A stretch of DNA of 39,819 bases from Lachnospiraceae bacterium. GTDB lineage: Bacteria; Bacillota; Clostridia; Lachnospirales; Lachnospiraceae. Below the pieces are notes generated by a model. That model searched no databases. It was not told the DNA's origin and saw only the letters and a program-made list of their open reading frames with translations. The stretch lies in the NCBI GenBank assembly GCA_016290905.1, contig JAEEVO010000016.1, forward strand, positions 1 to 39,819, read 5' to 3'. Positions 2,324 through 22,784 of the stretch are shown here, one piece after another. Made by a program: the position numbers and the translations under genes. Each line of letters starts with the position of its first letter. The stretch's first letter is position 1.

Positions 2324-2362
2324 TAAACAATTCTATAAAAATTATAAAGATTTGTTAGCTCC

Positions 2363-2442
2363 AATGGACTATGGGGACGGGGTCAGTGGTCCATTTTATT
2401 GTAATGGACTATGGGGACGGGGTCAGTGGTCCATTTTATTGT
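2363..2442. repeat. Perfect 40-bp tandem duplication of a REP-like hairpin
   Basis: Two identical 40-base units (2363-2402 and 2403-2442) sit in the divergent intergenic region. Each contains a 7-base inverted repeat, AATGGAC and GTCCATT, around a loop with the core GGGGACGG. The core resembles the REP-like elements at 16604-16640, 17113-17144 and 22785-22815. The rest of 2257-2556 is AT-rich and holds the two divergent promoters. Confidence 0.9.
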
Positions 2443-2473
2443 AAAGCTTTTTTATTATTTTTTTAAGTATTGT

Positions 2474-2502
2474 TTGAAATTTTGTAAATTATATGTTATA
2501 TT
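2474..2502 (+). promoter_or_regulatory. Sigma-A-type promoter for sensory hydrogenase module
   Basis: TTGAAA (2474-2479) and TATATT (2497-2502) are 17 bases apart and face the gene starting at 2557. Confidence 0.6.
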
Positions 2503-2556
2503 GAATATACGATGATATCTTTTAAGAAACTTACTATCCAGAAAGGGAACCGGTCT

Positions 2557-3326: not shown

Positions 3327-3375
3327 TCCGGACGGATTTCGACTTTACGATCATAAATACAGAAAGGAATGGATC

Positions 3376-7003: not shown

Positions 7004-8721
7004 TACTTTAATATACCAATTTTTATCAGTTGTTTTACAGCTTCGAATACAGCCTTGATACCTTCCCTCGCCTCCTGATAGCTTTCAAAAGGTTTGAAAA
7101 CATATGTTTCGGAACCGGTCTCGACCTGTTCAAGGATTATCTCATTAAACCGCTCAGCCATACCGTTCATAAGCTTCAGCTTATCATAATCGGTAAGTAT
7201 CGCTCCTTCGCCGCTTATATCGAGCAGGTGCAAAAGAGCTTTTTCAAGTCCGTCCACAAGCTCAACGCTCAAGCCCGTCCTGTTGTTTATCATCTCGATA
7301 ACCTTGTTTGCGTCAGGTGCGAGCTTTACATAACATTTCAGCGTTTCCGCTATATCGTAGCTTTGGATTCCTCTGTTATCAAGTCCGATATCCTCAGGCT
7401 TGACCGTAGTAAGTGCCGAATAGATGCGTGACGATACGAAATCGGCTCCCGAGAACTTATAGATGTAATGTACGGCAGAATCATCCATTGTCGCGAATAC
7501 ATCGACAAAATCATCTGTCCTGAAACCAAGATCTCCTAGCACATTAAAATATGTGGGCAGAACCGTTATCGGTTCATCTCCTTTTACAAAGGCTTCGTTC
7601 ACAACACGCTTGAAATCAAGGTTTGTTCCGTATATCGTAAGCTCAACCATAGGTCTTGCCATATCCGAATCCTTGATGATCTTGACTATCTCGGTGATTG
7701 GAGAAATGATGATTGCGCTGGCTACCAGTCCTATGAACATACCCAGGACTCCGCCGAGCACTCTGGAAAGCTTCGAATCCTGCAGCAGATAAACCGCCAC
7801 GGACCATTTCTTTTTAAGCTTCTTCTCTTTTTCGGGTTTGACCTTTGTCTTTTTCTCTTTAGCCTGTTTTGCTTTTTCTTTTGCCCTCTCGGCTTCTTTC
7901 TTCTCATCCTCGATGGCTGCCGCTATCGCAAGGCTTTCAAATCCGTCGGAAGGCTCTTCGAACTCTTCCTCTTCGGATTCTTCTCCGGAAGCTTCGGCAT
8001 CAGCCTCATCTTCGGTAAGTGCTTCCTGCTCTTCTTCCGTCTCCTCTTCAGCGTCCGCTTCCGAGTTTTCCTCTCCGGCAGCGAGCATGCTGAAGGCATC
8101 GGATGTATCCACACTTAAGGCAAGAGTCTTTTCTGGCTCCTTCGAATGTTCGGCAGCTGCTTCCTCTTCTTTCGGATATATACCGAAGGTACCGAACTCC
8201 TCACCGTTTTCATCTACCATCGATTCTTTGGATAATGTCGGTGTAAACGGCTGCTCAAGCTCCGCCTGGTCGTCCGCGGGCATTTCCGAACTTTTTGCCG
8301 CGGTTACTGCGTCAACCGCAGCATTGTGCGCCGCAGTCCATTTCGCAGATTTTTTGATAAAATGCTTTACGATCAAATATATGATCCAAGTAACGAACTT
8401 TGTTATCAGGAACAATGCAACAAACACCACCGGTGCCATAATCGACACCGTGAGCGCCGAGAGATGGTTTCCTATGGTATCGGTATGCGAGCCGAGCCAT
8501 CCTCCGAATACATCAAAGGAAAACAGCTTCATGCCCGGAACCTTTGCCAGCTTTAGCAAGAGCCATTCCGTAACGCTCTGTGTGATGAGCAGACATACAA
8601 TGATGCCAAGGATCCATAACCCGAGCCTTACAAGCCCAAACTTAACGCCCCTGTGTATGCCCACGATAACATCGATCATCACAATGATCACTGTTAATGC
8701 TAAAAGAATGCTAAGAACCAT
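7003..8721 (-). CDS. CvpA-like membrane protein with long charged cytoplasmic insert
   Basis: The 572-residue protein has hydrophobic segments near 3-20, 28-50 and 92-118 in a CvpA/colicin-V-production-like arrangement. A fourth membrane segment lies at about 321-341. Between them (about 122-306) is a low-complexity region, first Glu/Asp/Ala-rich and then Lys/Glu-rich (EKEKKLKKKW). The C-terminal 230 residues are soluble. CvpA proteins are widespread inner-membrane proteins of poorly defined function. The start at 8721 has GTAGGGG upstream. The gene is downstream of the hibernation factor on the same strand. The family assignment rests on topology and the N-terminal motif style, so it is moderate. 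Confidence 0.65.
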   Translation of the reverse strand: MVLSILLALTVIIVMIDVIVGIHRGVKFGLVRLGLWILGIIVCLLITQSVTEWLLLKLAKVPGMKLFSFDVFGGWLGSHTDTIGNHLSALTVSIMAPVVFVALFLITKFVTWIIYLIVKHFIKKSAKWTAAHNAAVDAVTAAKSSEMPADDQAELEQPFTPTLSKESMVDENGEEFGTFGIYPKEEEAAAEHSKEPEKTLALSVDTSDAFSMLAAGEENSEADAEEETEEEQEALTEDEADAEASGEESEEEEFEEPSDGFESLAIAAAIEDEKKEAERAKEKAKQAKEKKTKVKPEKEKKLKKKWSVAVYLLQDSKLSRVLGGVLGMFIGLVASAIIISPITEIVKIIKDSDMARPMVELTIYGTNLDFKRVVNEAFVKGDEPITVLPTYFNVLGDLGFRTDDFVDVFATMDDSAVHYIYKFSGADFVSSRIYSALTTVKPEDIGLDNRGIQSYDIAETLKCYVKLAPDANKVIEMINNRTGLSVELVDGLEKALLHLLDISGEGAILTDYDKLKLMNGMAERFNEIILEQVETGSETYVFKPFESYQEAREGIKAVFEAVKQLIKIGILK

Positions 8722-8778
8722 GAATGATTCCCCTACTGTTATCTGTAATAAAACCTAAGTATTACCTATTATATATGT

Positions 8779-8804
8779 TAAGTAACGACCTTTTCCGTTA
8801 CTTA
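8779..8804. other. 9-bp hairpin between hpf and cvpA-like genes
   Basis: TAAGTAACG and CGTTACTTA are inverted around an 8-base loop just after the hpf stop. No U-run follows on either strand, so termination is doubtful. A TATAAT-like box follows on the minus strand without a good -35. Confidence 0.5.
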
Positions 8805-8811
8805 CGTCTTA

Positions 8812-9336
8812 TCAATACTCCGGCTCAATAAGTCCGTAGGTATTCCCCTTTCTCTTATATACGACATTTACCTCATCGGTCTCGGAATTTCTGAATACAA
8901 AGAAATTATGACCGCTTAATTCCATTTCGATACATGCCTCCTCGGGATCCATGGGCTTCATGGCAAACTTCTTGGTCCTTGTGATGACGATTTCTTCTTC
9001 ATCTCCGGGTTCGGAAGCAAACGCCTCGCTGAGTCCTATGCCTCCCTGTTTGGCATCGACTATCTTGTTCTTATATTTCTTTATCTGTCTCTCGATGATC
9101 TCCTCAACCAGATCTACGGACACATACATATCCGTGCTCTCTTCTTCTGCACGGATGACGGTTCCCTTTATCGGGATGGTAACCTCTATCTTATGCCTGT
9201 CTTTCTGTACACTGAAGGTCACATGAACCTCGGTGTCAGGCTTAAAGTACTTCTCAAGCTTTCCAATCTTCTCATAGATGGCGTTTTTCAAACCTTCCGT
9301 TACGTCAATGTTTTTTCCTGTGATAATATAACGCAT
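8812..9336 (-). CDS. hpf: Long-form ribosome hibernation promoting factor
   Basis: The 174-residue protein has the N-terminal RaiA/HPF fold (MRYIITGKNIDVTEGLK start, the KLEKYF motif, then the E-V-T-I-P strands to about residue 100). A linker follows, then the C-terminal dimerisation domain (KPMDPEEACIEMEL, FFVFRN, VVYKRKGNTYGLIEP), so it is the long form. Long HPF binds the 30S subunit and joins 70S ribosomes into inactive 100S dimers under stress or stationary phase. The start at 9336 is preceded by AAGGAGG. A good sigma-A promoter lies at 9419-9447. Confidence 0.96.
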   Translation of the reverse strand: MRYIITGKNIDVTEGLKNAIYEKIGKLEKYFKPDTEVHVTFSVQKDRHKIEVTIPIKGTVIRAEEESTDMYVSVDLVEEIIERQIKKYKNKIVDAKQGGIGLSEAFASEPGDEEEIVITRTKKFAMKPMDPEEACIEMELSGHNFFVFRNSETDEVNVVYKRKGNTYGLIEPEY

Positions 9337-9418
9337 ATGCTGTCCTCCTTGTATAAGCCGTCTGCCGCTTTCCCGAGTACCTCCGGTGAACCGGTTCCCG
9401 GCTATTTGTTACAGAAAT

Positions 9419-9447
9419 ATTATAACATTAAAACAACTTTTCAGCAA
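9419..9447 (-). promoter_or_regulatory. Promoter for hpf
   Basis: On the minus strand TTGCTG (9442-9447) and TATAAT (9419-9424) are spaced by 17 bases, about 80 bases before the hpf start. Confidence 0.65.
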
Positions 9448-9491
9448 GCATTTAATTTATTTTATGCATTGTATTATTAAACTTTACAGCC

Positions 9492-9520
9492 TTGCAATTC
9501 CACCATTTTTATGTTATAAT
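9492..9520 (+). promoter_or_regulatory. Promoter for lasso B2 gene
   Basis: TTGCAA (9492-9497) and a perfect TATAAT (9515-9520) are spaced by 17 bases, facing the start at 9583. Confidence 0.7.
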
Positions 9521-9582
9521 GAAAAATGATGTGAAAATGTGGATCCGGCAATACGGCTCCGTAAATTACAGGAGAAAACAAT

Positions 9583-10050
9583 ATGGCTGAGGAGCAAACG
9601 GAAGGCAGTCTTCTTGTCAGGGCTATAAAGTTCTCCCGGGACAACAAATGCTTCTTTTTAATGATACGCACGGTAATATATTCGGCTTTTTTCAGAGCAG
9701 GTCTCTTCCTGTTCAAGCCCAAGCGTCTCAAAAAGCACTGGGGTATCGAGAAAGAAGAATCTGCCCGGGTTGAACCCGAAGACGAAATCGAATACGTCCG
9801 AAAGATAAGCCGGCTAGTCCTTTGTGTGTGCAACAACACCAAATGGGAAAGCAAATGTCTTGTGCGTGCTCTTACCGCCAGAAAGCTTCTCTGCAGGAAA
9901 AAGCTTCATTCCACAATGTATATGGGGATCAAGCAGGACAAAGACGGAAAAATGCTGGCGCATGCCTGGCTCAGATGGGGACAGTATATCGTAACAGGGA
10001 TACTACCGGACTTAAAAGAGTATGCGATAGTCACAATCTTTAAGAACTGA
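9583..10050 (+). CDS. Lasso peptide biosynthesis B2 protein (leader protease, transglutaminase-like)
   Basis: This 155-residue protein matches the B2 (PF13471, transglutaminase-like core) family in size and layout. The catalytic Cys lies in SKCLVRALTARKLL (about 89-102), and the His is in MLAHAWLRWG (about 124-133), followed by an Asp-containing LPDLKEYAIV segment. B2 proteins cleave the precursor leader in lasso biosynthesis, working with the PqqD-like B1 protein that binds the leader. Both partners are present downstream. The start at 9583 has ACAGGAG upstream. The gene has its own promoter and is separated from the rest of the plus-strand cluster by the precursor gene on the opposite strand. 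Confidence 0.88.
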   Translation: MAEEQTEGSLLVRAIKFSRDNKCFFLMIRTVIYSAFFRAGLFLFKPKRLKKHWGIEKEESARVEPEDEIEYVRKISRLVLCVCNNTKWESKCLVRALTARKLLCRKKLHSTMYMGIKQDKDGKMLAHAWLRWGQYIVTGILPDLKEYAIVTIFKN

Positions 10051-10072
10051 CATTAATATGCCTGTTTGCCAC

Positions 10073-10101
10073 AAAAAAGCGGGTTCATATAAAGAACCCG
10101 C
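10073..10101 (-). terminator. Terminator of the lasso precursor transcript
   Basis: GCGGGTTC/GAACCCGC (10079-10086 and 10094-10101) is followed on the minus strand by TTTTTT (10073-10078), about 35 bases past the precursor stop. Confidence 0.85.
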
Positions 10102-10137
10102 AAACACTGCCTTGCGATTATCTTTGAATAACGCTAA

Positions 10138-10320
10138 TTATTCCCACCAGGTAACTCCGCCTTCAGGAACTTTCTTACCGCTTGATGTAAACTCACCGTA
10201 ATCCGAATGTGCGCCCTTGCTATCCCTGTAATTTTTATCAATTACAGTAAACTCATTTCCGCCCTGAGCTGTTTCATTTACGTTAAGGGTCATAATATCA
10301 GGATTTTCCCACTTTTTCAT
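10138..10320 (-). CDS. Candidate lasso peptide precursor, atypically long core
   Basis: A 60-residue peptide starting at 10320, with GGAGG 8 bases before ATG. The leader KKWENPDIMTLNVNETA follows the lasso recognition pattern Y/WxxPxL/I...T. It has W4, P7, I9 and T17, the same 13-residue W/Y-to-T spacing as I recall for paeninodin. If T17 is the usual -2 Thr, the core begins at Q19 and is 42 residues long, far above the common 15-26. The acidic residue fitting a 9-member ring is D28 counted from G20, which would put T at -3. The C-terminus is TWWE. It lies between B2 and kinase genes on the opposite strand, with its own promoter and terminator. Confidence 0.78.
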   Translation of the reverse strand: MKKWENPDIMTLNVNETAQGGNEFTVIDKNYRDSKGAHSDYGEFTSSGKKVPEGGVTWWE

Positions 10321-10364
10321 TATATTTACCTCCAAAAATTTTTCGTTTTTTGTACTATGGCTAG

Positions 10365-10393
10365 ATAATAACACATTGTTATTTAAAATGCAA
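10365..10393 (-). promoter_or_regulatory. Promoter of the lasso precursor gene
   Basis: On the minus strand TTGCAT (10388-10393) and TATTAT (10365-10370) are spaced by exactly 17 bases. Together with the terminator at 10073 this defines a transcript of roughly 290 bases encoding only the precursor. Confidence 0.65.
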
Positions 10394-10423
10394 GAAATCT
10401 ATCAAAATTGAAAGAGTTTTTTT

Positions 10424-11317
10424 ATGAAAAAATATTTACTATATGATTTAAGCATATCTTCCGATATTGATCTGCTGATATCGGATGAGGTATGCAGGTT
10501 ACCGGATGACATTCAGTGTGAGATAATTGTTCGACGAAACAACCATAATCCCGATGAACTGATAGCAAAAAAACCTCTTACATCAGAATACTCTCATGAG
10601 TTTTGCTGGTTTAAAAGTAAGATAGGATATATTACGATACAATCCGGGCATACGATAACTGTCTACCCTGAAGGGTCGCCGTCCGATATTGAACTCTCTG
10701 CATTCATACTCGGATGGGGTCTCGCCTTTCTCTTCTACCAAAGGGATGGCCTTGGTATCCACTGCACCGGACTTTTTGGAAACGGGCAGGCATTCCTTAT
10801 CTGCGGTGACAGCGGAGCCGGTAAATCAACAACTGCGTTTAAGCTTTTGGACAAAGGTTACAGATTTCTAAACGATGACCTTGCATTCCTATCGGAAAAA
10901 GACTTTTTTCTTTTACACCCCGCTTTTCCCGTCCAAAAAATGTGCCGTAATGTTGCGGAAACGTTCGAAGACAAAACAAGGCTTAAATACATTGATGAGG
11001 ACAAAGACAAGTTTGCCTACCTTAACCCCGAACACTTTGAGAATGCTCCTCACCCACTCTCCTTTCTTTTCTGCATCGGGATCAGTTCAAATATCACATC
11101 CCTAAAGTATCGTGAAGAATCCGGTCTCAATAAAGTAAAAACTGTTTTGGACAATCTTTTTATGAATCCGCTTTTTGAAGATAACGGTTTTCCGGGCAAC
11201 GTAATGTCCATGGCTCTAAAACTATCTGCCAAGATAAGAGTTGTAAAGATAATGCGTCCGGCTAAGCAGGATACCGTTGAAGAAATATGTTCTGTCATAG
11301 AGAGTTACTTAATATAG
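10424..11317 (+). CDS. HPr-kinase-like protein of lasso cluster
   Basis: The 297-residue protein has a P-loop GDSGAGKST near residues 128-136 and a downstream FLNDDLAFL motif (about 148-156), as in HPr kinase/phosphorylase-like ATPases. A preceding segment, DGLGIHCTGLFGNGQAFLICG, matches the family's typical entry into the P-loop. Relatives in paeninodin-type clusters phosphorylate the precursor, at its C-terminal serine in the characterised case. The precursor here ends TWWE, so that exact reaction is not possible. Threonine or internal serines, or another role, must be considered. The HPr-binding C-terminal features of true HPrK are not evident. AAAGAG precedes the start. Confidence 0.85.
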   Translation: MKKYLLYDLSISSDIDLLISDEVCRLPDDIQCEIIVRRNNHNPDELIAKKPLTSEYSHEFCWFKSKIGYITIQSGHTITVYPEGSPSDIELSAFILGWGLAFLFYQRDGLGIHCTGLFGNGQAFLICGDSGAGKSTTAFKLLDKGYRFLNDDLAFLSEKDFFLLHPAFPVQKMCRNVAETFEDKTRLKYIDEDKDKFAYLNPEHFENAPHPLSFLFCIGISSNITSLKYREESGLNKVKTVLDNLFMNPLFEDNGFPGNVMSMALKLSAKIRVVKIMRPAKQDTVEEICSVIESYLI

Positions 11318-11433
11318 ATGCTTTACTATGCAAAAGAATATATTTGCAAACCGCAGAGCAGTTTCAATGTCATTATGTCAACGGCGTTGAACGGTTCTCG
11401 GGTTTTACATCAACATGAAAGGATGATCGGAAA

Positions 11434-13431
11434 ATGTCCGCAATTTCAGGCATAGTATTACAGGACAACAGTCAATCAATCTCTGATATCCAGAAAGACT
11501 GTATCAGAAAAATAACCAGAACATATAAAATAGACCGTTTTGATGAGCTTTCCGCACCCGGTCTATATCTTACATGTGGACATCAGTACTTTACCAACGA
11601 AGCGGTCAATGATATTTCGCCCACTTGTGATAAAAAAGAAAACATCTATTATACCGGCGATGTATTCCTTTTTAACCGTGAGCATTTAATAAACCTTCTT
11701 TCTTCAAAAAACGGGATTGAAAAAGAATTTCTTACTGTAAAAGGGGATGCAGAACTCGTTTTCTATGCCTACAGATTTCTGGGAACGGATTTCCTTAACC
11801 ATATCAAAGGAGTTTTTTCCATAGCCATATGTGACTTCGAAAAAAAACACTGTTATCTTATCACCGACCATGTTGCACAACGCCATCTTGCATATACTAT
11901 CATAGATAACCATTTATATTTTTCAAATTCATTAGAAATCCTGATGGAACTTCTGGGAAAGAATGCAGAGCTCGATGAGGAATGGTTATGTAATGCATAC
12001 GGAGACATGTCGGCCCTAACCGAGCTGCTTAAAGGCAGATGTTTCTTAAAAAACGTTTCCAGGGTATTCCCGGGGACATATGTCGATATTGACTTGTCCA
12101 CCTTTTCATACAAGGAAATAACCTACTGGAACCCTCTAAGCATAAAAATTAGAAAAGACCTGACCGACGAAGGTTTCAAAAAGCTTTTTGTCGACACCTT
12201 CAGAAACTGTGTTTGTTCAACCCTTCGCGCCAGAAAAAACCATGGAATATTGCTTTCCGGAGGTTTGGATTCTTCCTCAATCGCTTCTTTCGCCGCAGAG
12301 CAGCTTGAGAAAGAAGGTAAAAAACTGTTCAGTTATACTCAGGTACCTATGTCCGACTATAAATGTGTAAATACAACTTTTGAATGTGAGGACGAAACCA
12401 AAGAAGTTCTGTATAACAAAGAAAAATACCCGAATATTGATTGCGGTTTCATTGCTCCCGGTCCGGGTTCATGTATTTCCTTCATAGAAAAATCGACAAA
12501 ATTTTATACACAGCCCGTTAAACCGATCCTGAATGATTTTTATTTTAATGAGATGTACCGTAAAGCCGCCGATGCAGGCTGTACAATCCTCTATAACGGC
12601 CAGAACGGAAATGCAACCATCTCGTACGGAAAAATTTTCTCCTATGTTCATCATAAAGTTACAAGTTTCAGATTTATAAGTGCGATAAAAGAAGCTAACG
12701 CTTTTTGCTCCTCATTTCCTGCCAAACGTTTTCGATTATTGAAAGCTTATATCAGAATCCTGTGGCGCAAACTCAGAGTGCGTTCACACTTGTTAGAGTG
12801 TTTTCTGAACAAGAATCTGGAACGTCATTATTCCGTTAAAAAGCACGAGATCCAGTTATTACGTACCCAGGGTATAGACTCGGCAGATACAAATAAACAA
12901 CGCAGAAATTATTTATATATGCCTATCTCCTTTCAACATTTCGGCTATTATGATACCTGCTCCAGTCTTCATTTCGGTTTTATACCCATAGACCCCTCTC
13001 TTTCCAAAGACATGATCGAGTTATGCCTTTCCATGCCGATAGACTGTTTTGTAAAAAACGGGAAAGAACGTCGCGCCGTACGCGATTATTTCAAAGGGAT
13101 CGTGAGTGACAAAATACTTGACAATCTAAAACTGAGAGGTTTTCAAGGTGCTGATTATGCATACAGGGTAAACAAGTATTTTGATAATGAAAAAGATATA
13201 TTGTTTTCATATCTGAAATATCCTAAGCTATATGACTATCTTGACAAAGAAAAAATAGAAAAACTGATTGAAAAAATCGAAGAAACAAAATATAATATGG
13301 ACAAAGAAACCGTCGCGTTATCTGCCATAGCCGCTTCCTTCGGCTGTTTCTTAAAAAACTGGGATGATCGGAAGATCGAAAAGGAGAAAAACGAACATGG
13401 AATTAACCAAACCGATAAAGTTCAAACGTGA
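11434..13431 (+). CDS. Lasso macrolactam synthetase (asparagine synthetase B-like C protein)
   Basis: The 665-residue protein has an N-terminal glutamine-amidotransferase-like domain (about 1-220) that starts MSAISGI and lacks the catalytic Cys2 of true asparagine synthetases. An ATP-pyrophosphatase domain follows, with SGGLDSSS at about 275-282. Lasso C proteins adenylate an Asp or Glu side chain and close it onto the core N-terminus. The loss of Cys2 and the neighbouring B1, B2, ABC and precursor genes favour this over asparagine synthesis. The start at 11434 follows AAAGGATGATCGG. The 3' end overlaps the PqqD-like gene by 35 bases. Confidence 0.9.
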   Translation: MSAISGIVLQDNSQSISDIQKDCIRKITRTYKIDRFDELSAPGLYLTCGHQYFTNEAVNDISPTCDKKENIYYTGDVFLFNREHLINLLSSKNGIEKEFLTVKGDAELVFYAYRFLGTDFLNHIKGVFSIAICDFEKKHCYLITDHVAQRHLAYTIIDNHLYFSNSLEILMELLGKNAELDEEWLCNAYGDMSALTELLKGRCFLKNVSRVFPGTYVDIDLSTFSYKEITYWNPLSIKIRKDLTDEGFKKLFVDTFRNCVCSTLRARKNHGILLSGGLDSSSIASFAAEQLEKEGKKLFSYTQVPMSDYKCVNTTFECEDETKEVLYNKEKYPNIDCGFIAPGPGSCISFIEKSTKFYTQPVKPILNDFYFNEMYRKAADAGCTILYNGQNGNATISYGKIFSYVHHKVTSFRFISAIKEANAFCSSFPAKRFRLLKAYIRILWRKLRVRSHLLECFLNKNLERHYSVKKHEIQLLRTQGIDSADTNKQRRNYLYMPISFQHFGYYDTCSSLHFGFIPIDPSLSKDMIELCLSMPIDCFVKNGKERRAVRDYFKGIVSDKILDNLKLRGFQGADYAYRVNKYFDNEKDILFSYLKYPKLYDYLDKEKIEKLIEKIEETKYNMDKETVALSAIAASFGCFLKNWDDRKIEKEKNEHGINQTDKVQT

Positions 13432-13660
13432 AATTGAAGTTACCGACCTGAACGGCGAGAAAGCCATGATTGATTTTAATACGGGCAACTATTATCTTAT
13501 CAAGGGTGTCGGAAATGTTATCTGGGAAATGCTTTATGAAGAAACAACTCCGAAAGAGATCATAGAAAAACTGTTAAAGGAATACGATGTATCTCCCGAA
13601 GAGTGCAGAAAACAGGTAATCGAATTTTTAGGAAAGCTTGAAAGGGCAAATTTTATCTAA
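13397..13660 (+). CDS. PqqD-like lasso B1 protein (RiPP recognition element)
   Basis: An 87-residue winged-helix PqqD-like protein. Features are a beta-hairpin region with MIDFNTGNYYLIKGVGNVIWEML (about 23-45), then helices with PKEIIEKLLKEY and a C-terminal LGKLERANFI. B1 proteins bind the precursor leader through the YxxP-type motif and present it to the B2 protease. I start it at 13397, with AAGGAG 10 bases upstream inside the cyclase gene. The following ABC transporter starts directly after its stop, so cyclase, B1 and exporter are tightly coupled. Confidence 0.92.
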   Translation: MELTKPIKFKREIEVTDLNGEKAMIDFNTGNYYLIKGVGNVIWEMLYEETTPKEIIEKLLKEYDVSPEECRKQVIEFLGKLERANFI

Positions 13661-15328
13661 ATGAAAAAAATTAAACAATACATTTTCGTTTTAAAATGGG
13701 TACTCGGACATGCAAAGGAGTATCGTTGGCATATTATTTTTATGCTTGTCTTCGGCCTTGCAGTATCCGGTGCCTCTCTTTATACGGTCATTCTTTCCAA
13801 AAGGATCATCGACGGGGCTTCCGAAGGGATGACCTTAACCGGCATTATAATAATGTATATAGCTTTTATGCTTGGAATACAGATATTCTCTGCCGGTGCG
13901 TCTCTTCTTGCAACAATTATAAACGAAAAGGTTTCTTTCGGTATTCGTAAAAATGTATATAATAAGATAATCCGTGCTTCCTGGCAGGATGTCACAAAAT
14001 ACCATTCCGGAGATATAGTGACCAGGCTTACAAGCGATGCCGGTAATGTTGCCGATGGCGTGATCAATACTCTTCCGGCCATCGTACAGCTGAGTATAGA
14101 GCTTGTACTGGTATTTTTTACCTTGTTTTATTACTCTCATTTCCTGGCTCTTCTTGGTCTTATAGTAGCACCGGTAGCGGTCGGAGTTTCTTGGCTCTTT
14201 GCCAGAAGGCTGAAAGGCTTACAAAAGAAAGTGCAGGAATCCGAATCGGCTTATCACTCATTTCTCCAGGAAAGTATTGCGAATCTGCTTATCGTCAAGT
14301 CCTTTACCAATGAAGACTATTCTGTAAATAAGCTTTCAGAACTTAGAAGTGAAAGGTTCAAATGGGTGTTCAGGCGCTCCAAATTCGGATTGCTCGGCAC
14401 AACTTCCATCGGACTTGCTTTTCAGATAGGCTATCTTTCAGCCTTTACCTACGGCGCCGTACAGATATCCAAAAATCTGATATCTTACGGAACAATGTCG
14501 GTTTTCATAACATTGATAAACAGAGTGCAAAGTCCGATCTTCGGTCTGTCCCAACAGATTCCCAAAATAGTTGCGCTCTTTACTTCTGCCGAAAGGATTA
14601 TGGCTCTGTCCGAAATCCCGCCCGAAGAAAAAACCGAAGTTACAATCGATACCACCGAGCTTGGTATAAGAGTTGAAAATCTTTCATTCGGTTATGACAA
14701 GGATACGGTTCTCGAAAATGTTTCTTTTTCGATCACTCCCGGCGAGTCAACCGCAGTCATAGGAGAGTCCGGTATAGGAAAGACGACGCTTATAAGGCTT
14801 ATTCTTTCCTTTGTCAAGCCAAACGAAGGAAGTATTACTTTCTTTAACAGCAAAAATGAAGAGTGTCCCGGAGATGCCGGGATACGTAAGTATATAGCAT
14901 ATGTACCCCAGGGAAATACGCTGTTCAGCGGTACCATAAGGGAAAATCTTCTTACCGGTCGTTATGATGCCACTGAAGACGATATCTATGATGCATTAAA
15001 GCTTGCTTCCGCATATGATTTTATAAGCGAACTGCCCAAAGGCATCGATACGGTAATAGGTGAGAAAGGACTTGGGCTTTCGGAAGGCCAGGCGCAGCGT
15101 ATCGCCATAGCGCGCGCGTTCTTAAGGAAATCGCCCATACTTATCTTTGATGAGGCAACCTCAGCACTTGATGAAGGAACCGAGCAGAAAGTCATCCAAG
15201 GCTTCTCACAGCTCAACCCCAGACCTACATGCCTTATCATTACTCACAGAAAGAGCATCCTTAAATATTGTACCTCTGAGATAAAGATTGAAGACAAGAA
15301 GATTTCGATACAAGCACTAAATAACTAA
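13661..15328 (+). CDS. ABC exporter of lasso peptide (D protein)
   Basis: The 555-residue half-transporter has an N-terminal six-helix exporter domain (about 15-310) and a C-terminal ATPase domain. The Walker A is GESGIGKTT near 368-376, the signature is a variant LSEGQ near 473-477 (canonical LSGGQ), and the Walker B is ILIFDEATSALD near 493-504. There is no N-terminal C39 peptidase domain, consistent with leader removal by the separate B1/B2 pair. It likely secretes the mature lasso peptide and gives self-protection. The start follows the B1 stop without a gap. The gene ends the plus-strand operon at a strong terminator. Confidence 0.92.
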   Translation: MKKIKQYIFVLKWVLGHAKEYRWHIIFMLVFGLAVSGASLYTVILSKRIIDGASEGMTLTGIIIMYIAFMLGIQIFSAGASLLATIINEKVSFGIRKNVYNKIIRASWQDVTKYHSGDIVTRLTSDAGNVADGVINTLPAIVQLSIELVLVFFTLFYYSHFLALLGLIVAPVAVGVSWLFARRLKGLQKKVQESESAYHSFLQESIANLLIVKSFTNEDYSVNKLSELRSERFKWVFRRSKFGLLGTTSIGLAFQIGYLSAFTYGAVQISKNLISYGTMSVFITLINRVQSPIFGLSQQIPKIVALFTSAERIMALSEIPPEEKTEVTIDTTELGIRVENLSFGYDKDTVLENVSFSITPGESTAVIGESGIGKTTLIRLILSFVKPNEGSITFFNSKNEECPGDAGIRKYIAYVPQGNTLFSGTIRENLLTGRYDATEDDIYDALKLASAYDFISELPKGIDTVIGEKGLGLSEGQAQRIAIARAFLRKSPILIFDEATSALDEGTEQKVIQGFSQLNPRPTCLIITHRKSILKYCTSEIKIEDKKISIQALNN

Positions 15329-15340
15329 ATCGACAAAAAT

Positions 15341-15388
15341 AACCGGATAAGACTCAGTTCTCAACTGATGCTTATCCGGTTCCTTTTT
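15341..15388 (+). terminator. Rho-independent terminator of lasso operon
   Basis: AACCGGATAAG (15341-15351) pairs with 15371-15381, with a nested CAGTT/AACTG, followed by CCTTTTT. Confidence 0.92.
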
Positions 15389-15451
15389 AGAGTTAGTATT
15401 GCCTCTTTTCTAAATATACAATCTCTCTTATTAATAACGCAGCTTCCCTCG

Positions 15452-15889
15452 TCAGAGAACGCACCCCTTCTGCAAAATAACGTTTGCATACTGGCTGGTT
15501 TCTGAGGTTGCTATGACACAATATGCTTTTTTTGCCTCCTCATAGAACGTGAAACGTTCGAGTTTCTGAATGACTGAAGTGCCTCGGGGCTCTTCCTTTT
15601 CAATCATCTTCTCATAGGTTTTCCATATGGAAACGTCCGCATTGTCTCCCGGAACCCTTTCCATAAGGCTTACGGGCTTTTCCACATACTGGTCGAGTGG
15701 AAACACCTGAAGGATTGCTTCGAGTATCTCCGGTACTCCGTGCCCGTCCATTCTAAGGACTATGCCGTTCTTTCCCATAGTCTCAGCCGGGAAATTCCCG
15801 TCAGCTATGACTATCGTATCGCTGTGTCCCATTTCACATAATATCTTTAACAGCTCCGGTGAGAGCATAGGTGAAATTCCCTTTAACAT
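15452..15889 (-). CDS. fucU: L-fucose mutarotase-like protein (FucU/RbsD family)
   Basis: The 145-residue protein has the FucU/RbsD pattern: ISPMLSPELLKILCEMGHSD (about 5-24) with the catalytic-type His, IADGNFPAE (about 27-35), and a C-terminal ETSQYANVILQKG segment. FucU interconverts the alpha and beta anomers of L-fucose, and related sugars such as L-galactose share the relevant ring configuration. I start it at 15889 because AAGGGGG lies 6 bases upstream; the ATG at 15907 has no such site. It lies downstream of the amidohydrolase across a repeat-bearing gap of about 160 bases. Confidence 0.88.
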   Translation of the reverse strand: MLKGISPMLSPELLKILCEMGHSDTIVIADGNFPAETMGKNGIVLRMDGHGVPEILEAILQVFPLDQYVEKPVSLMERVPGDNADVSIWKTYEKMIEKEEPRGTSVIQKLERFTFYEEAKKAYCVIATSETSQYANVILQKGCVL

Positions 15890-15932
15890 ATTGACCCCCT
15901 TATTCAAGCTTATAATTCATTTCGTTATACGT

Positions 15933-16011
15933 TGTCATCCTGAGGGCTTTAGCCCGAAGGATCTTGTTTACTGTAAAGCCTTTAAGATTCTTCGCTTTGC
16001 TCAGAGTAACA
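15933..16011. repeat. GTCATTCTGAGCG-family palindromic repeat, copy 2
   Basis: It runs from TGTCATCCTGAGGG to TTGCTCAGAGTAACA between fucU and the amidohydrolase. GGGCTTTAGCCC forms a local hairpin unique to this copy. Confidence 0.75.
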
Positions 16012-16051
16012 TAAGCCCGTACATATCTTCGCTCCGAATCTCACTCCCGCA

Positions 16052-16990
16052 TCACAACATATTATCTATGACCGGCAAAGGACTTAATCCTTCAAATCCA
16101 TAGAATCTGACGGCATTTTCACCAAGGAACAGCCTCTTTTCTTCATCCGTCATCTTTGGCGTATCAAGAATGAACCTGACAGCACTCTTGTAGGTGATAT
16201 CCGTCATGGTCCTCGGATAGTCGCTGCCCCACATAAGCTTATCCATCCCGCAGATATCCCTTGCCTCAAGTATGGCATCTATAGCCGACGGATACGGATA
16301 AAACTCCTTATGGAAAAGCCATGTAAGGCCGCCGCTCTCAATATAGACTTTCTTATTTTTTGCAAGCTCTATCTGCTTCTGCCAGCCCGGTGTGGTCACC
16401 ATGCCGAAATGCCCTATGGCTACTCTTAAATCCGGACACGCATTTATCACCGCCTGCATGCTTTCGACCTGCTCGTCCCCGTCAGCCATATCTATGGAAA
16501 CATATTTTCCTGCTGCCTCCACACTTTTAAACACGTCCATATGTGCCGTCAAGTCCTTATTCCTCAACCGGCAGGCACATATCTTCACTCCGTCAAACCC
16601 ATCCAATGTGACAATGGGGACGGTTCTTTTTGTCACATTGTCTTCTTTATACCTCTCCTCGACATATCCCTCATCCTCATACAGAGCCGTAATGCGGAAC
16701 CTGCCGGGATATTTGGCACGAACCGTAAGCAGATACTCATTCTGATTGCCGTCAAGATACTCCTGCGTAACCGCGCAGGCATTAACCCCCGCATAATCCA
16801 TATTTGCGATCAGGCGTTCGGCGGTATTCCTGTTATCCTCCATATAAGGCGGCATCATCTGATGTACCCCGCCTAAAAATGTACTCTTCCCGTTCCCAAG
16901 ACCTCGTACCGGCAGCTTCCCAACATACCCGTCCTGCTTCTCCCATAGATGGACATGTGCATCTATTATCACATAACCGCTCTCCGTCAT
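16052..16990 (-). CDS. Amidohydrolase-2 family protein, probable sugar lactonase
   Basis: The 312-residue protein has amidohydrolase-2 TIM-barrel motifs: DAHVHLWE (10-17), AIGHFGM in the middle, and a C-terminal MWGSDYPRT with the metal-type Asp. Relatives hydrolyse 1,4- or 1,5-lactones of L-fuconate, L-galactonate and similar acids, and the company of fucU and uxaA supports that. Residues 118-129 (NVTKRTVPIVTL) are encoded by an in-frame REP-like element, between a Glu/Asp/Lys stretch and the strand FDGVKICA. The insertion adds about 12 residues to a surface loop without breaking the frame. The gene lies about 160 bases after uxaA. Confidence 0.83.
   Translation of the reverse strand: MTESGYVIIDAHVHLWEKQDGYVGKLPVRGLGNGKSTFLGGVHQMMPPYMEDNRNTAERLIANMDYAGVNACAVTQEYLDGNQNEYLLTVRAKYPGRFRITALYEDEGYVEERYKEDNVTKRTVPIVTLDGFDGVKICACRLRNKDLTAHMDVFKSVEAAGKYVSIDMADGDEQVESMQAVINACPDLRVAIGHFGMVTTPGWQKQIELAKNKKVYIESGGLTWLFHKEFYPYPSAIDAILEARDICGMDKLMWGSDYPRTMTDITYKSAVRFILDTPKMTDEEKRLFLGENAVRFYGFEGLSPLPVIDNML
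16604..16640. repeat. REP-like element inside the amidohydrolase coding region
   Basis: CAATGTGACA and TGTCACATTG (16604-16613 and 16631-16640) flank TGGGGACGGTTCTTT. It is near-identical to the intergenic copy at 22785-22815 in inverted orientation. Confidence 0.9.
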
Positions 16991-17112
16991 AGCTCCTCCG
17001 TTATGGTATATCGCTTAATTAAGTTTTCGTTCACCTCATCAGTCAGCTTCACCGACGAGGCATCTCAATCACTTCGTGGCAGAGATAATTCCCTCAATGA
17101 TAAAGCTAAAAT

Positions 17113-17144
17113 CAATCACAGAACCGTCCCTCTGATTGACATTT
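17113..17144. repeat. REP-like element, divergent copy, at the end of uxaA
   Basis: TCAATCA and TGATTGA enclose CAGAACCGTCCCTC, the complement of the GGGACGGTTCT core seen in the other REP-like copies. It lies between uxaA and the amidohydrolase. The preceding 17029-17100 also looks like degenerate repeat (CCTC/GAGG inverted ends). Confidence 0.7.
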
Positions 17145-17147
17145 CCC

Positions 17148-18713
17148 TTACAGTGTAACTCCGTCCTTAAAAATGGCGATTTCTCTGTATCCGTTCCTTT
17201 CGTTGCAGGTCTCCCCGCCTTCGGCAACCTTTATCACAAAATCTATCAGTTCCCGCCTTAAATCTGCGCCCTCTATCATAGGCCCTGCATCAAAATCGAT
17301 CCAGTTCTTCTTTCTCTGTGCGAGACCTGAGTTTGTTGCGATCTTAACAGTCGGAACCGGTGCTCCGAGCGGAGTTCCGCGTCCTGTGGAAAAAAGGATC
17401 ATATGACAGCCCGCCGCAGTAAGGTTGGTAACAGCCACCATATCATTGCCGGGTCCGTTTAAGAGATTTAACCCGTTTTCCGTAACAACATCCCCGTAAT
17501 CGAGCACGTCCACCACCTGCGCCCTGCCGCCCTTCTGGGTACAGCCGAGCGATTTTTCCTCAAGAGTTGTTATTCCCCCTGCCTTGTTTCCCGGCGAAGG
17601 GTTCTCGTATATTTCCTGACCGTGTCTGGTAAAATAATCCTTAAAATCGTTTATCAGTGCAACAGTCTTGTTAAAAGCCGCCTCATCCCTGCATCGGTCC
17701 ATAAGGATGGTCTCAGCTCCGAACATCTCGGGGACCTCGGTAAGAACGGTGCTTCCGCCCTCAGCGATCAGGTAGTCGGAGAACTGTCCGATCAGCGGAT
17801 TTGCCGTAAGCCCGGAAAAGCCGTCGGAGCCCCCGCATTTCAAACCCACCTTAAGCTTTGAAATCGGAACTTCAACTCTTTTTTCCACTGCTGCCAGTGC
17901 CTGAAGCTCCCTGACTATCCTCACGCCCTCTTCAACCTCATCTTCACAGTCCTGAGCATTAAGGAATCGCACTCTCTTTTCATCTATACCGCAGAAACCT
18001 TTCACGCTGCCAATACTTCCCGCACTATCCTGCTCAGTCTTGCCGTATTTGCCATTAACACTGTCGGCATTCTCCGTACTATCCTGCTTTGGCTTACCGC
18101 ATCCGGTACCACCGCATTCGGCACTTATGCTTGCGTGTGCATTACCTACAGCATCCATCTCAGAAGCAGCCTCCTGTATCCCAAGCACCTTCTTAAACAC
18201 GGACAAATTGTTGTTCTCGCAACCAAGCCCCAGAACAAGCACTCCGCCCGCATTCGGATGCTGTATCAGCCCCCGCAGTATTTTCTGTGTAAGCCGGTGG
18301 TCTCCACCGAGCTGGGAACACCCGTAAGGATGCGGAAAAAACAGCGCTCCCGTTCTTTTTGCGATAGCCTCGGCCACCTTGTTCACGCAGCCCACGGTAT
18401 TCACTATCCATACATCGTTCCTGATGCCGATATTACCGTCAGCCCTCAAGTATGCCTTTATAGTTCTTCCCTCTGCTTCGGGCATGTGGAATTCCTTATG
18501 CCGGTAAGTATACTCCAGTTTTTCATGCAGGTTTGTCTTCAGATTATGGGTGTGAACATGCTCTCCTACTTTTATATCCGAAGTCGCATGTCCTATCGGA
18601 AATCCGTATTTTATCACATCTTCACCTGCAGCTATACATTTAAGTGCCACCTTATGCCCAGTATTCACATCCACTGCTACGTTATCCGAAGGATGTATTG
18701 TTATTGTTTTCAT
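17148..18713 (-). CDS. uxaA: Altronate dehydratase family enzyme (UxaA) with unusual insert
   Basis: The 521-residue protein joins the N-terminal SAF-like UxaA domain (about 1-75) to the main dehydratase domain. Motifs include GCVNKVAEAIA, PHPYGCSQLGGDHR (about 128-140), GLGCENNN (162-169), LKCGGSDGFSG and FSTGRGTPLGAPVPTVKIATN. UxaA converts D-altronate to 2-keto-3-deoxy-D-gluconate; paralogs act on L-fuconate. Residues about 179-243 form an insert of Gly/Ser/Asn/Asp-rich sequence between VFKKVLG and DEKRVRFLNAQ, where other members seem to be directly joined. It contains two similar 16-residue units. The start at 18713 has a weak upstream site (AAGGTGGC). Confidence 0.9.
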   Translation of the reverse strand: MKTITIHPSDNVAVDVNTGHKVALKCIAAGEDVIKYGFPIGHATSDIKVGEHVHTHNLKTNLHEKLEYTYRHKEFHMPEAEGRTIKAYLRADGNIGIRNDVWIVNTVGCVNKVAEAIAKRTGALFFPHPYGCSQLGGDHRLTQKILRGLIQHPNAGGVLVLGLGCENNNLSVFKKVLGIQEAASEMDAVGNAHASISAECGGTGCGKPKQDSTENADSVNGKYGKTEQDSAGSIGSVKGFCGIDEKRVRFLNAQDCEDEVEEGVRIVRELQALAAVEKRVEVPISKLKVGLKCGGSDGFSGLTANPLIGQFSDYLIAEGGSTVLTEVPEMFGAETILMDRCRDEAAFNKTVALINDFKDYFTRHGQEIYENPSPGNKAGGITTLEEKSLGCTQKGGRAQVVDVLDYGDVVTENGLNLLNGPGNDMVAVTNLTAAGCHMILFSTGRGTPLGAPVPTVKIATNSGLAQRKKNWIDFDAGPMIEGADLRRELIDFVIKVAEGGETCNERNGYREIAIFKDGVTL

Positions 18714-18771
18714 TATATGCCACCTTATCTTTACTCCGAATCAAACGAAAACACATGGTCCGAACTTTTCT

Positions 18772-20094
18772 TTACAATATCGCTTCTATCGTTTTCCCTA
18801 TTCCGTCCTTCTGTATAGAATCGTAATAGCCTTCAACCTCGTCCTTCATGAACGAAAGGTCCTTTCCCCAGTACTGCTCTTTCTTTAAGATATCAGCAAC
18901 GGATGCCGTCTTCATGAATGCCATGATGTCCTCATTGTCATTGGTCTCGTCGGTCCTGTAGAATGCTATGAGTGCTGCAAGTGAGAAGGTCAGGCACTTG
19001 GGTAGCGTACCCTTCTGTTCATGATATTCCAGTATTGTAGGAAGAACTCTTGCCTTAAACTTGCTGACAGAATTAAGGGCTATGCTTAAAAGCTGATGCT
19101 TTACGAAAGGATTTGAAAATCTTTCAAGCACTGCTTTACCAAACGGTATGTCCTCGTTCTCATGACCGAGTGTCGGAATTATCTCCTCAAATATGACCTT
19201 ATTCAGATACCTGTTTATAAGCGCATCGTCGAGACACTCCTTTACGGTGGAAAGCCCGTAAAGACGCGCCGCAAGGACCATCGATGTATGTCCGCCGTTA
19301 AGTATCCTTACCTTTCTCTTCTTATAAGGCTTGACATCCGGCGTCCAGATGACATTTATGCCGGCTTTCTTTAAGGGGAATTCATCCTCATGATCACCCT
19401 CGATAACCCAGAGATGGAAGATTTCTGCGGTATTCATCAGTTTATCTTCTTCTCCGAGGCGCTTTGTCAGCGTTTCCACCTCATCCTTCGGATAACCTGT
19501 ACATATCCTGTCAACAAGCGTGTTGCAGAAATCATTTTCTTTATTTAACCAGTTTTTAAAATCATCGGGCAGATTCCAAAGATCGGCATACTTCTGTACA
19601 CAGTTTAGAAGCTCCTTACCGTTATTGTCTATGAGCTCACACGAAAGTATGATAAATCCGGGAAGTCCCGCTTTAAACCTCTCGTAAAGAAGCACAGTCA
19701 GCTTTGCGGGGAAGGACTTGGGCGGAGCATCCGTGATCGACTCGGTGCCGAGATACTCTATGCCGGCTTCCGTCGTATTGGAAATGATCACTCTCATATC
19801 GGGATTATGAGCGAGTTCGAGATATCCTGCATAATCTGTATAAGGATCCACACCTCTCGATATGGATGTAACCTTAATGCATTCATCAACTATGGTTCCG
19901 TTATCCACACCGCGCAGGAACTGATGATATACACCATTTTGTTCATTGATCACAGGGATAAGTCCCTTTGCTATCGGCTGTACGACCACTACCTTCCCGT
20001 CAAACAGGCCCTGTTCGTTCATCTTATGGATGAATACATCTGCAAAACTTCTTAAAAAACCGCCTTCACCAAACTGTATCACTTTTTCTTTCAT
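18772..20094 (-). CDS. uxaB: Tagaturonate reductase / altronate oxidoreductase
   Basis: The 440-residue protein belongs to the mannitol dehydrogenase family: an N-terminal FGEGGFLRSF nucleotide-binding start (about 7-16), IISNTTEAGIEY (about 105-116), a conserved RILNGGHTSM (catalytic-region NGxH, about 269-278) and a helical C-terminal domain. UxaB reduces D-tagaturonate to D-altronate with NADH, the step before UxaA, which lies directly downstream. I start it at 20094, where AAAGGT precedes ATG; the open frame continues 24 residues further but would run back into the preceding gene. Confidence 0.9.
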   Translation of the reverse strand: MKEKVIQFGEGGFLRSFADVFIHKMNEQGLFDGKVVVVQPIAKGLIPVINEQNGVYHQFLRGVDNGTIVDECIKVTSISRGVDPYTDYAGYLELAHNPDMRVIISNTTEAGIEYLGTESITDAPPKSFPAKLTVLLYERFKAGLPGFIILSCELIDNNGKELLNCVQKYADLWNLPDDFKNWLNKENDFCNTLVDRICTGYPKDEVETLTKRLGEEDKLMNTAEIFHLWVIEGDHEDEFPLKKAGINVIWTPDVKPYKKRKVRILNGGHTSMVLAARLYGLSTVKECLDDALINRYLNKVIFEEIIPTLGHENEDIPFGKAVLERFSNPFVKHQLLSIALNSVSKFKARVLPTILEYHEQKGTLPKCLTFSLAALIAFYRTDETNDNEDIMAFMKTASVADILKKEQYWGKDLSFMKDEVEGYYDSIQKDGIGKTIEAIL

Positions 20095-20110
20095 GACTTT
20101 TACCTTTCTT

Positions 20111-21670
20111 TTACTTCTTGAGCTTAATAGAATATAACTCACCGTCCTTGACGGCGTATGCAACACCGTTCGAAGAGAAATCGGTTATATCATCAAATAC
20201 AAACGGAACAATTTCCTCGCCTGTTGCAGAAAGGCTTCCGTATTTCCCGTTCTTTGCCAGATTTACCGTCCCGAGTTCCTCGTTGTTGAGCCATAAATCA
20301 TCACCATCGTAGTCAAACGGAGCAATTATATTATTCTGAGCATCTATCAAACCGTATTTCCGGTCAACGGTTATGGCAACGTAGCAATTATCGTAAACGT
20401 AGAAAATATCTGCATATTCAAACGGGATCACTACTTCTCCTTTCAGGTTTATAGCGCCGCCAAGGTCATCCTTAATCATCGTTATGACTCCGTTCGAATG
20501 CGCATAAGTATACCCATGTCTGTCATATTCAAATGGGATTATCACATTATTCTCTTTGTCAATGACGCCTGTTTTCATCTCTCCGTCAACCCATTTGGCA
20601 ACAACCCCGTATTCGTTTGAAAAAACATCTAAAAAACCGGCGTATTCACAAGGGATAACAAGCTCTCCTTTTTTGTTTATGAAGCCGATAAGATCCGTTT
20701 CTTTCTCCCTGACCGCTGCAAATCCATTTTCGAAGCTCCATCCGAACTGAAAATTGTTTCCTTTTTCATCCTTGACTTCTATAAGTTCACCCTTGTTATT
20801 GTAATACCCGAGAAGTTCATAATCTTCTCCCACACATCTTAAATAAGCCGTCATTCCTTCTTCAGTGTCTGTTAACCATTCTTCTATGCCGTTTTCGGGA
20901 TCAACGTCCACACAAACCTTTGCCAGCACTTTTCCTTTCTTATTGATGAGGTAGTCATAGCGTCCGGATTCCTTAGTCTCGCCCAGTCTGACCACTGCTA
21001 TGCCGTCTTCAAACTCAGTGGTGCCTATCACAACTGCATTTTCCTGCCAATCCATCTTAAAAGCTTTCTTACCGTTAGATTTATAGTATCCCCTGCAATA
21101 GCTTAATGTAAGACCGTTATCCATGGTACAATACCCACCCTCTAACGGGTCAATACCTTCCGTAGTTAATCCGTTTTCAAGCGGGTCGCTGAATTTTTCA
21201 TTAAGCAGAATATTTCCATCAGGATCTACAAGAAATATCTCGCAATCCTCCCAGCTGGTATAATTATTCAAAACAGAGGCATTATCGCTGACTCCCGAGA
21301 TCATTACCCAATCAGCCTTTATGCCCAAATTCTTGATCTCAGCCGTATCACATACTATCTCAGCCTTTTTTACGGTTACCTTGCAGGTATATTTCTTTCC
21401 TGCATTCTTTGCCATAATCTTTGCCTTCCCTTCAGAAACACCTGTCACAACGCCCTTCTTTACGGTTGCCACTTTCTTGTCGGATGACTTCCATGAAATC
21501 TTGCCCGTAGCGTTTTTAAGAGTCAGTGTAAAGCTTTCTCCAACCATGACAGTCTTTTTCTTTGCGCTAAGCTTAACGTCAGCCGCAAACACACCCATCT
21601 CAGGGAATATCCCGCATATAAGTGCACAAACAAGCATTACTGCAAAAAGTTTAAATAAATTCTTTTTCAT
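20111..21670 (-). CDS. Secreted Big_2 and WG-repeat protein
   Basis: The 519-residue protein has a signal peptide (KKNLFKLF, hydrophobic core, ending near GVFAAD, about residue 30). A bacterial Ig-like group 2 domain (about 32-100, with SWKSSDKKVATV and GVVTGVSEGKAKI) follows, then several WG-type repeats. The repeats have the pattern GxIDKxNNxIIPFEYD, for example GFINKKGELVIPCEY, GVIDKENNVIIPFEYD, GAINLKGEVVIPFEY and GLIDAQNNIIAPFDYD. It should be extracellular and surface-associated. Its ligand is unknown. It lies inside the sugar-acid gene group, 16 bases before uxaB and 19 bases after the LgoD-like gene, so it may be cotranscribed. AGGAATAT precedes the start. Confidence 0.85.
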   Translation of the reverse strand: MKKNLFKLFAVMLVCALICGIFPEMGVFAADVKLSAKKKTVMVGESFTLTLKNATGKISWKSSDKKVATVKKGVVTGVSEGKAKIMAKNAGKKYTCKVTVKKAEIVCDTAEIKNLGIKADWVMISGVSDNASVLNNYTSWEDCEIFLVDPDGNILLNEKFSDPLENGLTTEGIDPLEGGYCTMDNGLTLSYCRGYYKSNGKKAFKMDWQENAVVIGTTEFEDGIAVVRLGETKESGRYDYLINKKGKVLAKVCVDVDPENGIEEWLTDTEEGMTAYLRCVGEDYELLGYYNNKGELIEVKDEKGNNFQFGWSFENGFAAVREKETDLIGFINKKGELVIPCEYAGFLDVFSNEYGVVAKWVDGEMKTGVIDKENNVIIPFEYDRHGYTYAHSNGVITMIKDDLGGAINLKGEVVIPFEYADIFYVYDNCYVAITVDRKYGLIDAQNNIIAPFDYDGDDLWLNNEELGTVNLAKNGKYGSLSATGEEIVPFVFDDITDFSSNGVAYAVKDGELYSIKLKK

Positions 21671-21689
21671 CTTCTATATTCCTCCGGTT

Positions 21690-22715: not shown

Positions 22716-22784
22716 GTTTATAAATCTCCTTAAATTATCTTTAACCAATCAAAGACTCAATCTATTGTTTTCTCTGACTTATAA

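Follow-up and report, generated by a model that had tools for sequence, protein, structure and literature searches.

A Lachnospiraceae lasso peptide cluster with a long, divergently encoded precursor, a conflict in the leader-Thr register and a candidate internal kinase site

The DNA analyzed here, referred to as the window, is a stretch of 39,819 nucleotides from a Lachnospiraceae bacterium whose genome assembly comprises 2.9 Mb in 198 contigs and is 81% complete. Between positions 9583 and 15328 it carries five protein genes on the forward strand and a short precursor gene on the reverse strand, with the following features (T+n denotes the nth residue after the leader Thr):

9583–10050, forward: B2 leader peptidase, transglutaminase-like (NF033537 75.1 bits, cut-off 33; PF13471 67 bits)
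10079–10101, reverse: terminator-like stem-loop with a T run, just past the precursor stop and between the convergent precursor and B2 genes (from the sequence)
10138–10320, reverse: precursor gene A, 60 aa (homologues by profile and placement; dN/dS)
10141–10236, reverse: predicted loop and tail, K29–E60, 32 residues (translation, register counts)
10177–10200, reverse: tail motif YGEFTSSG, Y41–G48, whose Ser46/Ser47 (core residues 27/28) form a candidate phosphorylation site (motif counts)
10237–10263, reverse: predicted macrolactam ring, Gly20–Asp28, 9 residues (Asp or Glu at T+10/+11 in 44/48 precursors)
10264–10320, reverse: predicted leader, M1–Q19, with WxxPxI and Thr17 at −3 (register statistics)
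10329–10333, reverse: GGAGG ribosome binding site of the precursor (read from the sequence)
10424–11317, forward: HprK-like kinase K, 297 aa (His113, G128DSGAGKS135, Asp151-Asp152)
11434–13431, forward: macrolactam cyclase C, Asn-synthetase-like (Asn_synthase, GATase_7; Ser for Cys at residue 2)
about 13397–13660, forward: B1/RRE protein, PqqD-like, overlapping the end of the cyclase gene (PF05402 61.6 bits, cut-off 23.4)
13661–15328, forward: ABC exporter D (PF00664, PF00005)

The components that characterize a lasso cluster, namely a B2 peptidase, an Asn-synthetase-like cyclase, an RRE and a precursor, are all present, and their Pfam domains as well as NF033537 scored above the cut-offs. The cyclase passed for both Asn_synthase and GATase_7, scored 123.7 against the NCBIfam lasso cyclase model NF033535 (below its cut-off of 525), and begins with MSAISG, which places Ser rather than Cys at residue 2. 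B1 scored 73.5 against the NCBIfam lasso PqqD model NF033536 (below its cut-off of 80), and, submitted as 13391–13657 with a start two codons longer, matched chain B of PDB entry 9x90 (E 1.6e-12). When the pocket residues named in PMC13381572 were matched onto this chain, L65, Y69, V71, E75, Q79 and F83 (PbaB1 numbering) of the Trp-type RRE pocket were all retained, with Val in place of I44. All HprK-family matches of the kinase were below cut-off, a PDB search with B2 returned only a spurious repeat match, and no C39 peptidase domain was among the Pfam matches of the exporter. Taken together, the locus is almost certainly a lasso cluster with the 60-residue peptide as its precursor. The first-pass annotation had called the same B2, kinase, Cys2-less cyclase, PqqD-like B1, ABC protein and opposite-strand 60-residue peptide, and each of them was found in place. 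As judged by eye from translations, hydrogenase/ferredoxin-like genes lie upstream (703–4653) and genes for sugar-acid use, including an altronate dehydratase-like one, lie downstream (15452–22748); no link of either group to the cluster was seen.

The precursor, MKKWENPDIMTLNVNETAQGGNEFTVIDKNYRDSKGAHSDYGEFTSSGKKVPEGGVTWWE, contains W4, P7 and T17, ends with TWWE and scored 16.6 bits against the paeninodin leader model NF033524 (cut-off 27). A core starting at Q19 would have 42 residues (4644.16 Da, monoisotopic, neutral, minus water), with Thr, Val and Ile at positions 7–9 and thus no Asp or Glu there, while a core starting at G20 would have 41 residues (4516.10 Da) with D28 at position 9. 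The long, divergently encoded core and the problem with the Thr register described by the first-pass annotation both hold in this respect: with Thr at −2, an acidic residue at core positions 7–9 is lacking, and one is gained only with the Gly20 start.

Several lines of evidence indicate that this gene is real rather than a chance reading frame. It is preceded by GGAGG and followed by the stem-loop (terminator-like sites in the region: 3, versus 0.8, sd 1.0, in shuffled sequences), and it has copies on two other contigs, near-identical on L057 and diverged on L058. The L058 locus encodes a cyclase with 79% identity and a precursor that agrees with that of the window in its leader frame, shares GG-x-EFTVID and GEFTSSG with it and almost keeps the C-terminus (GVTWLE versus GVTWWE). 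The dN/dS between the window and L058 precursors was 0.21 overall, 0.06 in the ring (27 bases only) and 0.37 in the tail; the L057 copy has two changes, both nonsynonymous, which are too few to weigh. Furthermore, 13/48 rows of the locus table show a precursor encoded divergently, directly before the kinase and cyclase; these rows equal 12 distinct contigs including that of the window, because certain contigs occur twice in the table, and B2 adjoins the precursor in nine of them. Other relatives have the precursor elsewhere. On the strength of these copies, dN/dS, the GGAGG, the stem-loop and the conserved divergent placement, the 60-residue precursor is a real gene. The possibility that another short ORF is the true precursor, raised earlier as a refuting outcome, is ruled out by a leader-pattern ORF in 46/46 cyclase-bearing locus rows, seven of which came via the precursor itself (L082–L085, L087, L088 and the window as starting point). 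Scanning positions 8001–17000 of the window with the leader pattern gave one precursor only.

A cyclase 99% identical to that of the window is present in the Lachnospiraceae MAG RUI456, to which contigs L057 and L058 belong. These two contigs are identical over exactly 141 bases at either end and carry titles with a k141 prefix, as would be expected of an assembly bubble with two branches. Between them, B2 (at its end) and B1 (at its start) agree closely (within window positions 9801–13450), and about 20% of positions differ between about 10130 and 13240, that is, from the precursor stop codon to late in the cyclase gene. It is likely that a single locus carries the precursor-kinase-cyclase block in two versions, the alternative being two loci with identical flanks, and the occurrence of both versions in one MAG suggests exchange of the whole block as a unit.

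For the comparison with relatives, we searched 397 genomes of the family with the cyclase, which had matches in 11 including its own genome; a precursor profile recovered 12 (all 11 with the cyclase plus one more; E up to 1e-30) as well as 6 of 24 genomes of the genus, a recovery that is not independent because the profile was built partly from those same genomes. In addition, 24 named loci were collected, of which four duplicate contigs already in the set; they include loci of Acetitomaculum ruminis, Lachnospira multipara and L. pectinoschiza. No relative was found in the viral contigs scanned with the cyclase. The precursor set consists of leader-pattern picks, apart from two ORFs judged false by eye, plus four from profile matches; its 73 sequences were reduced to 49 below 60% identity, and counts over 48 include the window and leave out the canonical precursor of Priestia. 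A paeninodin-type set from Bacilli contains 12 aligned precursors of 13 (one row with a YxxP leader was left out), four of them from one genome.

We then compared where the acidic residue lies relative to the leader Thr. It is at T+11 in 29/49 precursors (Asp in all) and at T+10 in 19/49; by class (n = 48), 26 have it at T+11 only, 15 at T+10 only, three at both and four at neither. Asp or Glu at T+10 or T+11 therefore occurs in 44/48, compared with 14.5 in shuffled sequences (sd 3.1, maximum 24, 2000 runs), although shuffles overstate the significance because the sequences are related. A core starting at T+3 with a ring of 8–9 residues fits 44/48 precursors, one starting at T+4 with the same ring sizes fits 30/48, and the textbook start at T+2, i.e. 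Thr at −2, with a ring of 7–9 fits 31/48 (null 20.1, maximum 30). With only the loci found by cyclase or contig, the fits were 31/35 for Thr(−3) and 22/35 for Thr(−2); at 45% identity the gap shrinks to 18/21 versus 16/21. Among positions T+1 to T+3, variability is highest at T+2 (3.36 bits, versus 1.53 and 1.91), and Gly occupies T+3 in 32/49 precursors.

The Gly at T+3 has to be read with caution. The Bacilli precursors have the same W-to-Thr leader spacing, with Gly at T+3 in 12/12 and Asp at T+10 in 11/12. The 23-residue core of paeninodin starts with Ala at T+2. The paeninodin core ion given in PMC5067487, m/z 1209.50, equals the sequence beginning at this Ala and not the version without it, so the conserved Gly is residue 2 in paeninodin, and its conservation is no proof of Thr(−3). 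Given this register, the T+11 clade should have either a cut shifted by one or a ring of ten. These data suggest that one of two rules fails in T+11 precursors: cleavage at Thr(−2) or the usual limit of nine residues in the ring. We consider a cut with Thr at −3 and a Gly20–Asp28 ring probable, since the ring then stays at 8–9 residues, the most variable residue falls at −1 and a one-residue insertion after Thr is all that is needed; of the two registers set out by the first-pass annotation, this is the better supported. The four of 48 precursors that have no acid at T+10/+11 speak against it. The Asp offset also follows the cyclase tree, with 2 changes among 31 cyclases against a shuffled mean of 5.6 (a count reached by at most 1 of 500 shuffles), in a tree of single-cyclase loci that counts two rows with both offsets as T+11 and from which five multi-cyclase loci were removed post hoc because nearest-precursor assignment was probably wrong in L060, L073 and L075 (by eye). 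With all 41 cyclases, the T+11 label changes 7 times versus 13.0 when shuffled, some precursors being probably mis-assigned. The offset thus looks like a property of enzyme clades.

The kinase has H113, K134, D151 and D152. The His and both Asp are invariant in 35/35 aligned kinases (270–345 aa; taken from 47 at non-duplicate loci, leaving out 12 located over 1.8 kb away from a precursor), and the P-loop is found in 53/53 kinase-length matches, for which it served as a filter that excluded none. Paeninodin-type kinases phosphorylate a C-terminal Ser. The window precursor, ending in TWWE, has no such target, which bears out the earlier claim of a kinase lacking it. Across the set, a C-terminal Ser is present in 11/15 T+10-only versus 4/26 T+11-only precursors (Fisher p 0.0005), and on the kinase tree, which is too poorly supported to carry weight, this character changes 2 times versus 4.7 (25 kinases, eight locus ids left out; 4/21 inner branches well supported). 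By contrast, a motif [WYF]x[STE][FYS]x(0-2)S occurs in the tail of 13/26 T+11-only precursors (shuffled 0.8, maximum 5) versus 1/15 T+10-only precursors, and Ser makes up 21% of core positions 22–28 versus 6% of the remaining tail, with at least one in 20/26 T+11-only precursors; both statistics are flattering, as they were defined from these same sequences. The matches end at core positions 23–28, that of the window at Ser46/Ser47. In two of the 13 T+11 representatives with the motif, its Ser is the last residue of the peptide (WASFES, FYSFS), and the others extend 5–23 residues further, which suggests that the motif Ser corresponds to the terminal Ser of paeninodin and that the others carry an extension behind it. 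The 13/26 T+11-only precursors without the motif count against this reading, as does the weaker constraint on the tail between the window and L058 (dN/dS 0.37). That the kinase's seemingly missing target is an internal tail Ser is a tentative proposal, to which we give slightly less than even odds.

Some related loci carry further components. Near B2, a nucleotidyltransferase (PF14907, 144–160 bits) is encoded in relatives (L059:4146-5312, L063:4057-5292, L066:6686-7852); none adjoins B2 in the window, and the single homologue in its own genome (24%) is on a different contig. Genes of about 370–425 aa first labelled as kinases fall outside the size range of the kinase alignment, and the four tested are nucleotidyltransferases of this kind (PF14907). 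A second, very divergent cyclase clade lies beside the first in L059:12320-14254, L060:9336-11240, L075:1-1981 and L020:12203-14146, and the precursors beside these cyclases have Glu at T+10 and a C-terminal Ser. Precursors with a lasso leader, His/Gly-repeat or Gly/Trp-rich cores and CRC tails were found at L075:6242-6475, which has no acid at T+10/+11, and at L015:1556-1792. Three Lachnospira clusters (L017:4938-5144, L068:9559-9768, L079:9580-9786) contain an extra precursor, also without acid at T+10/+11, whose strongly conserved tail ends with SGDNCSGFNIYGFFGKGWIW.

A question raised by the register is whether B2 could keep the usual cut and the ring could grow instead. Cleavage after Ala18 with Thr at −2 would give a core of Gln19–Glu60 and a 10-residue ring, Gln19–Asp28, and the T+10 sisters would then have ordinary 9-residue rings. 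The paeninodin register and the common leader spacing fit this, and Thr is stated to be at −2 in all lasso precursors reported before an Ile(−2) exception (PMC10368454). However, rings of 7–9 residues are called typical in PMC5067487, and the core would begin with Gln, Tyr, Asn, Phe, His or others, compared with Ala or Leu in the Bacilli set (11/12). Metanodin has Asn1 and a relative has Gln there (PMC12670498), so an odd first residue is not impossible; still, we regard the ten-residue ring as unlikely. Under either ring, the tail past the Ser motif might be a follower removed by an unlinked host protease, leaving a product of about 27–29 residues that ends at or beside the phospho-Ser. The two representatives ending at the motif Ser would agree with this, but a second protease is absent among the five cluster proteins, the C-terminus is nearly kept in L058, and the C-terminal motif shared with other T+11 precursors is weak (7/26, null 1.7, maximum 7), which makes trimming a rather unlikely, though not negligible, explanation.

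The kinase could instead modify the ring Thr25 or a residue close to the start of the core, similar to BsfK and LppK, which both act on Ser3. Such sites have precedents with low-identity HprK-like kinases, and Ser is found at core position 5 in 11/49 precursors and Thr at position 6, which is Thr25 in the window, in 9/49. Core residue 3, however, is Asn in the window and Glu in L058, with Ser in 4/49, and no ring column holds Ser or Thr in the majority of precursors, so that we judge a site in this region improbable. It is very improbable that the peptide is never cyclized, like those of the LPP family, and that the cyclase serves another precursor: an HprK-like kinase, an RRE and an exporter are common to LPP clusters, but here the leader motif has W and not Y, a cyclase and B2 are present, an SpI peptidase is absent among the cluster genes, positions 8001–17000 of the window hold a single leader-pattern precursor, and the Asp offset tracks the cyclase clades.

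From these genes, motifs and conservation patterns, we favor, with somewhat better than even confidence, a paeninodin-like cluster of the Lachnospiraceae long-tailed kind with a predicted Thr(−3) cut, nine-residue ring and internal phospho-Ser. By analogy with PadeB1 and BsfB1, B1 would bind the WxxPxI leader and hand the precursor to the kinase and B2. The kinase would phosphorylate the linear precursor at the tail-motif Ser (Ser46 or Ser47), the putative counterpart of paeninodin's C-terminal Ser, with the residues past it as an added C-terminal extension. B2 would cut after Gln19, leaving Thr17 at −3 and a core of Gly20–Glu60; the cyclase would join the Gly20 amine to the Asp28 side chain, closing the ring around a threaded loop and tail of 32 residues, and the ABC protein would export the product. 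More broadly, and more tentatively, the whole Lachnospiraceae T+11 cyclase clade may break one rule, through a B2 cut one residue further on or a ten-residue ring, and have its kinase target moved to an internal Ser motif with a C-terminal extension behind it. If true, genome mining that assumes a core start at T+2 makes wrong calls for this clade, and the repertoire of B2 peptidases, cyclases and kinases would widen to include a lasso peptide of 41 residues with an internal phosphoserine. All of these results are inferences from sequence.

Precursors of this kind have been predicted before. Sabino et al. 2020 (PMC7533575), in its accessible sections, describes 35 precursors, mostly from Lachnospiraceae, with Thr at −3, cores of 21–42 aa in the text and 44 in a table, and kinases in 85% of complete clusters; since Gly as residue 1 was a search rule there, Thr(−3) is an assumption and not a measurement. 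Its rumen precursors (Table 3; Lachnospira, Butyrivibrio and others) share the WxxP leader, Thr at −3, Gly1, Asp8/9, cores up to 44 aa, a Ser conserved towards the C-terminal end and HPr kinase genes in the clusters, and the window precursor likewise has T17, G20, D28 and a 41-residue core, within a range up to about 44 aa. They differ in species and sequence, and neither the Thr(−2) conflict nor an internal kinase site is raised in those sections. In the Hungate1000 paper (PMC13289728), 21 lasso clusters are predicted, mostly in Butyrivibrio. The earlier suggestion of a new lasso type is therefore too strong, as such long-tailed Thr(−3) precursors are already listed by Sabino et al.; the lasso cluster, the long divergent precursor, the Thr register problem and the kinase without a C-terminal Ser all stand. 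In the openly licensed literature searched, we found no measured product of the T+11 clade, statement of the register dilemma or internal kinase site.

Paeninodin (PadeA/K/B1/B2/C/D) and its Bacilli relatives share the gene set, Trp-type RRE, leader spacing and kinase family; they differ in having Asp at T+10 (11/12), whereas T+11 prevails here (29/48), and paeninodin differs in its C-terminal Ser, 23-residue core and measured Thr(−2). The Bsf cluster of Bradymonas (PMC10368454) also combines an HprK-like kinase, a precursor without a C-terminal Ser and separate B1 and B2, but has Ile at −2, a Y-type leader and the phosphate at Ser3, placed by BsfK. The linear polyphosphorylated peptides (LPP; PMC13381572), in which LppK phosphorylates Ser3 of a linear peptide, share the RRE, HprK-like kinase and exporter and a 45-aa core, but have no cyclase, a YxxP leader and an SpI-type peptidase, unlike the WxxP leader, cyclase and B2 found here. 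BsfK and LppK are therefore precedents for a kinase acting away from the C-terminus. The predicted 41 residues would exceed the record lengths given for lasso peptides in PMC13352647, which speaks against such a core; of the long lasso peptides cited there, pandonodin has 33 aa with an 18-aa tail and achromonodin-1 has 30 aa. Overall, the cluster appears to be a new example of an already predicted kind, to which the present comparison would add two points, the register conflict and the internal kinase site.
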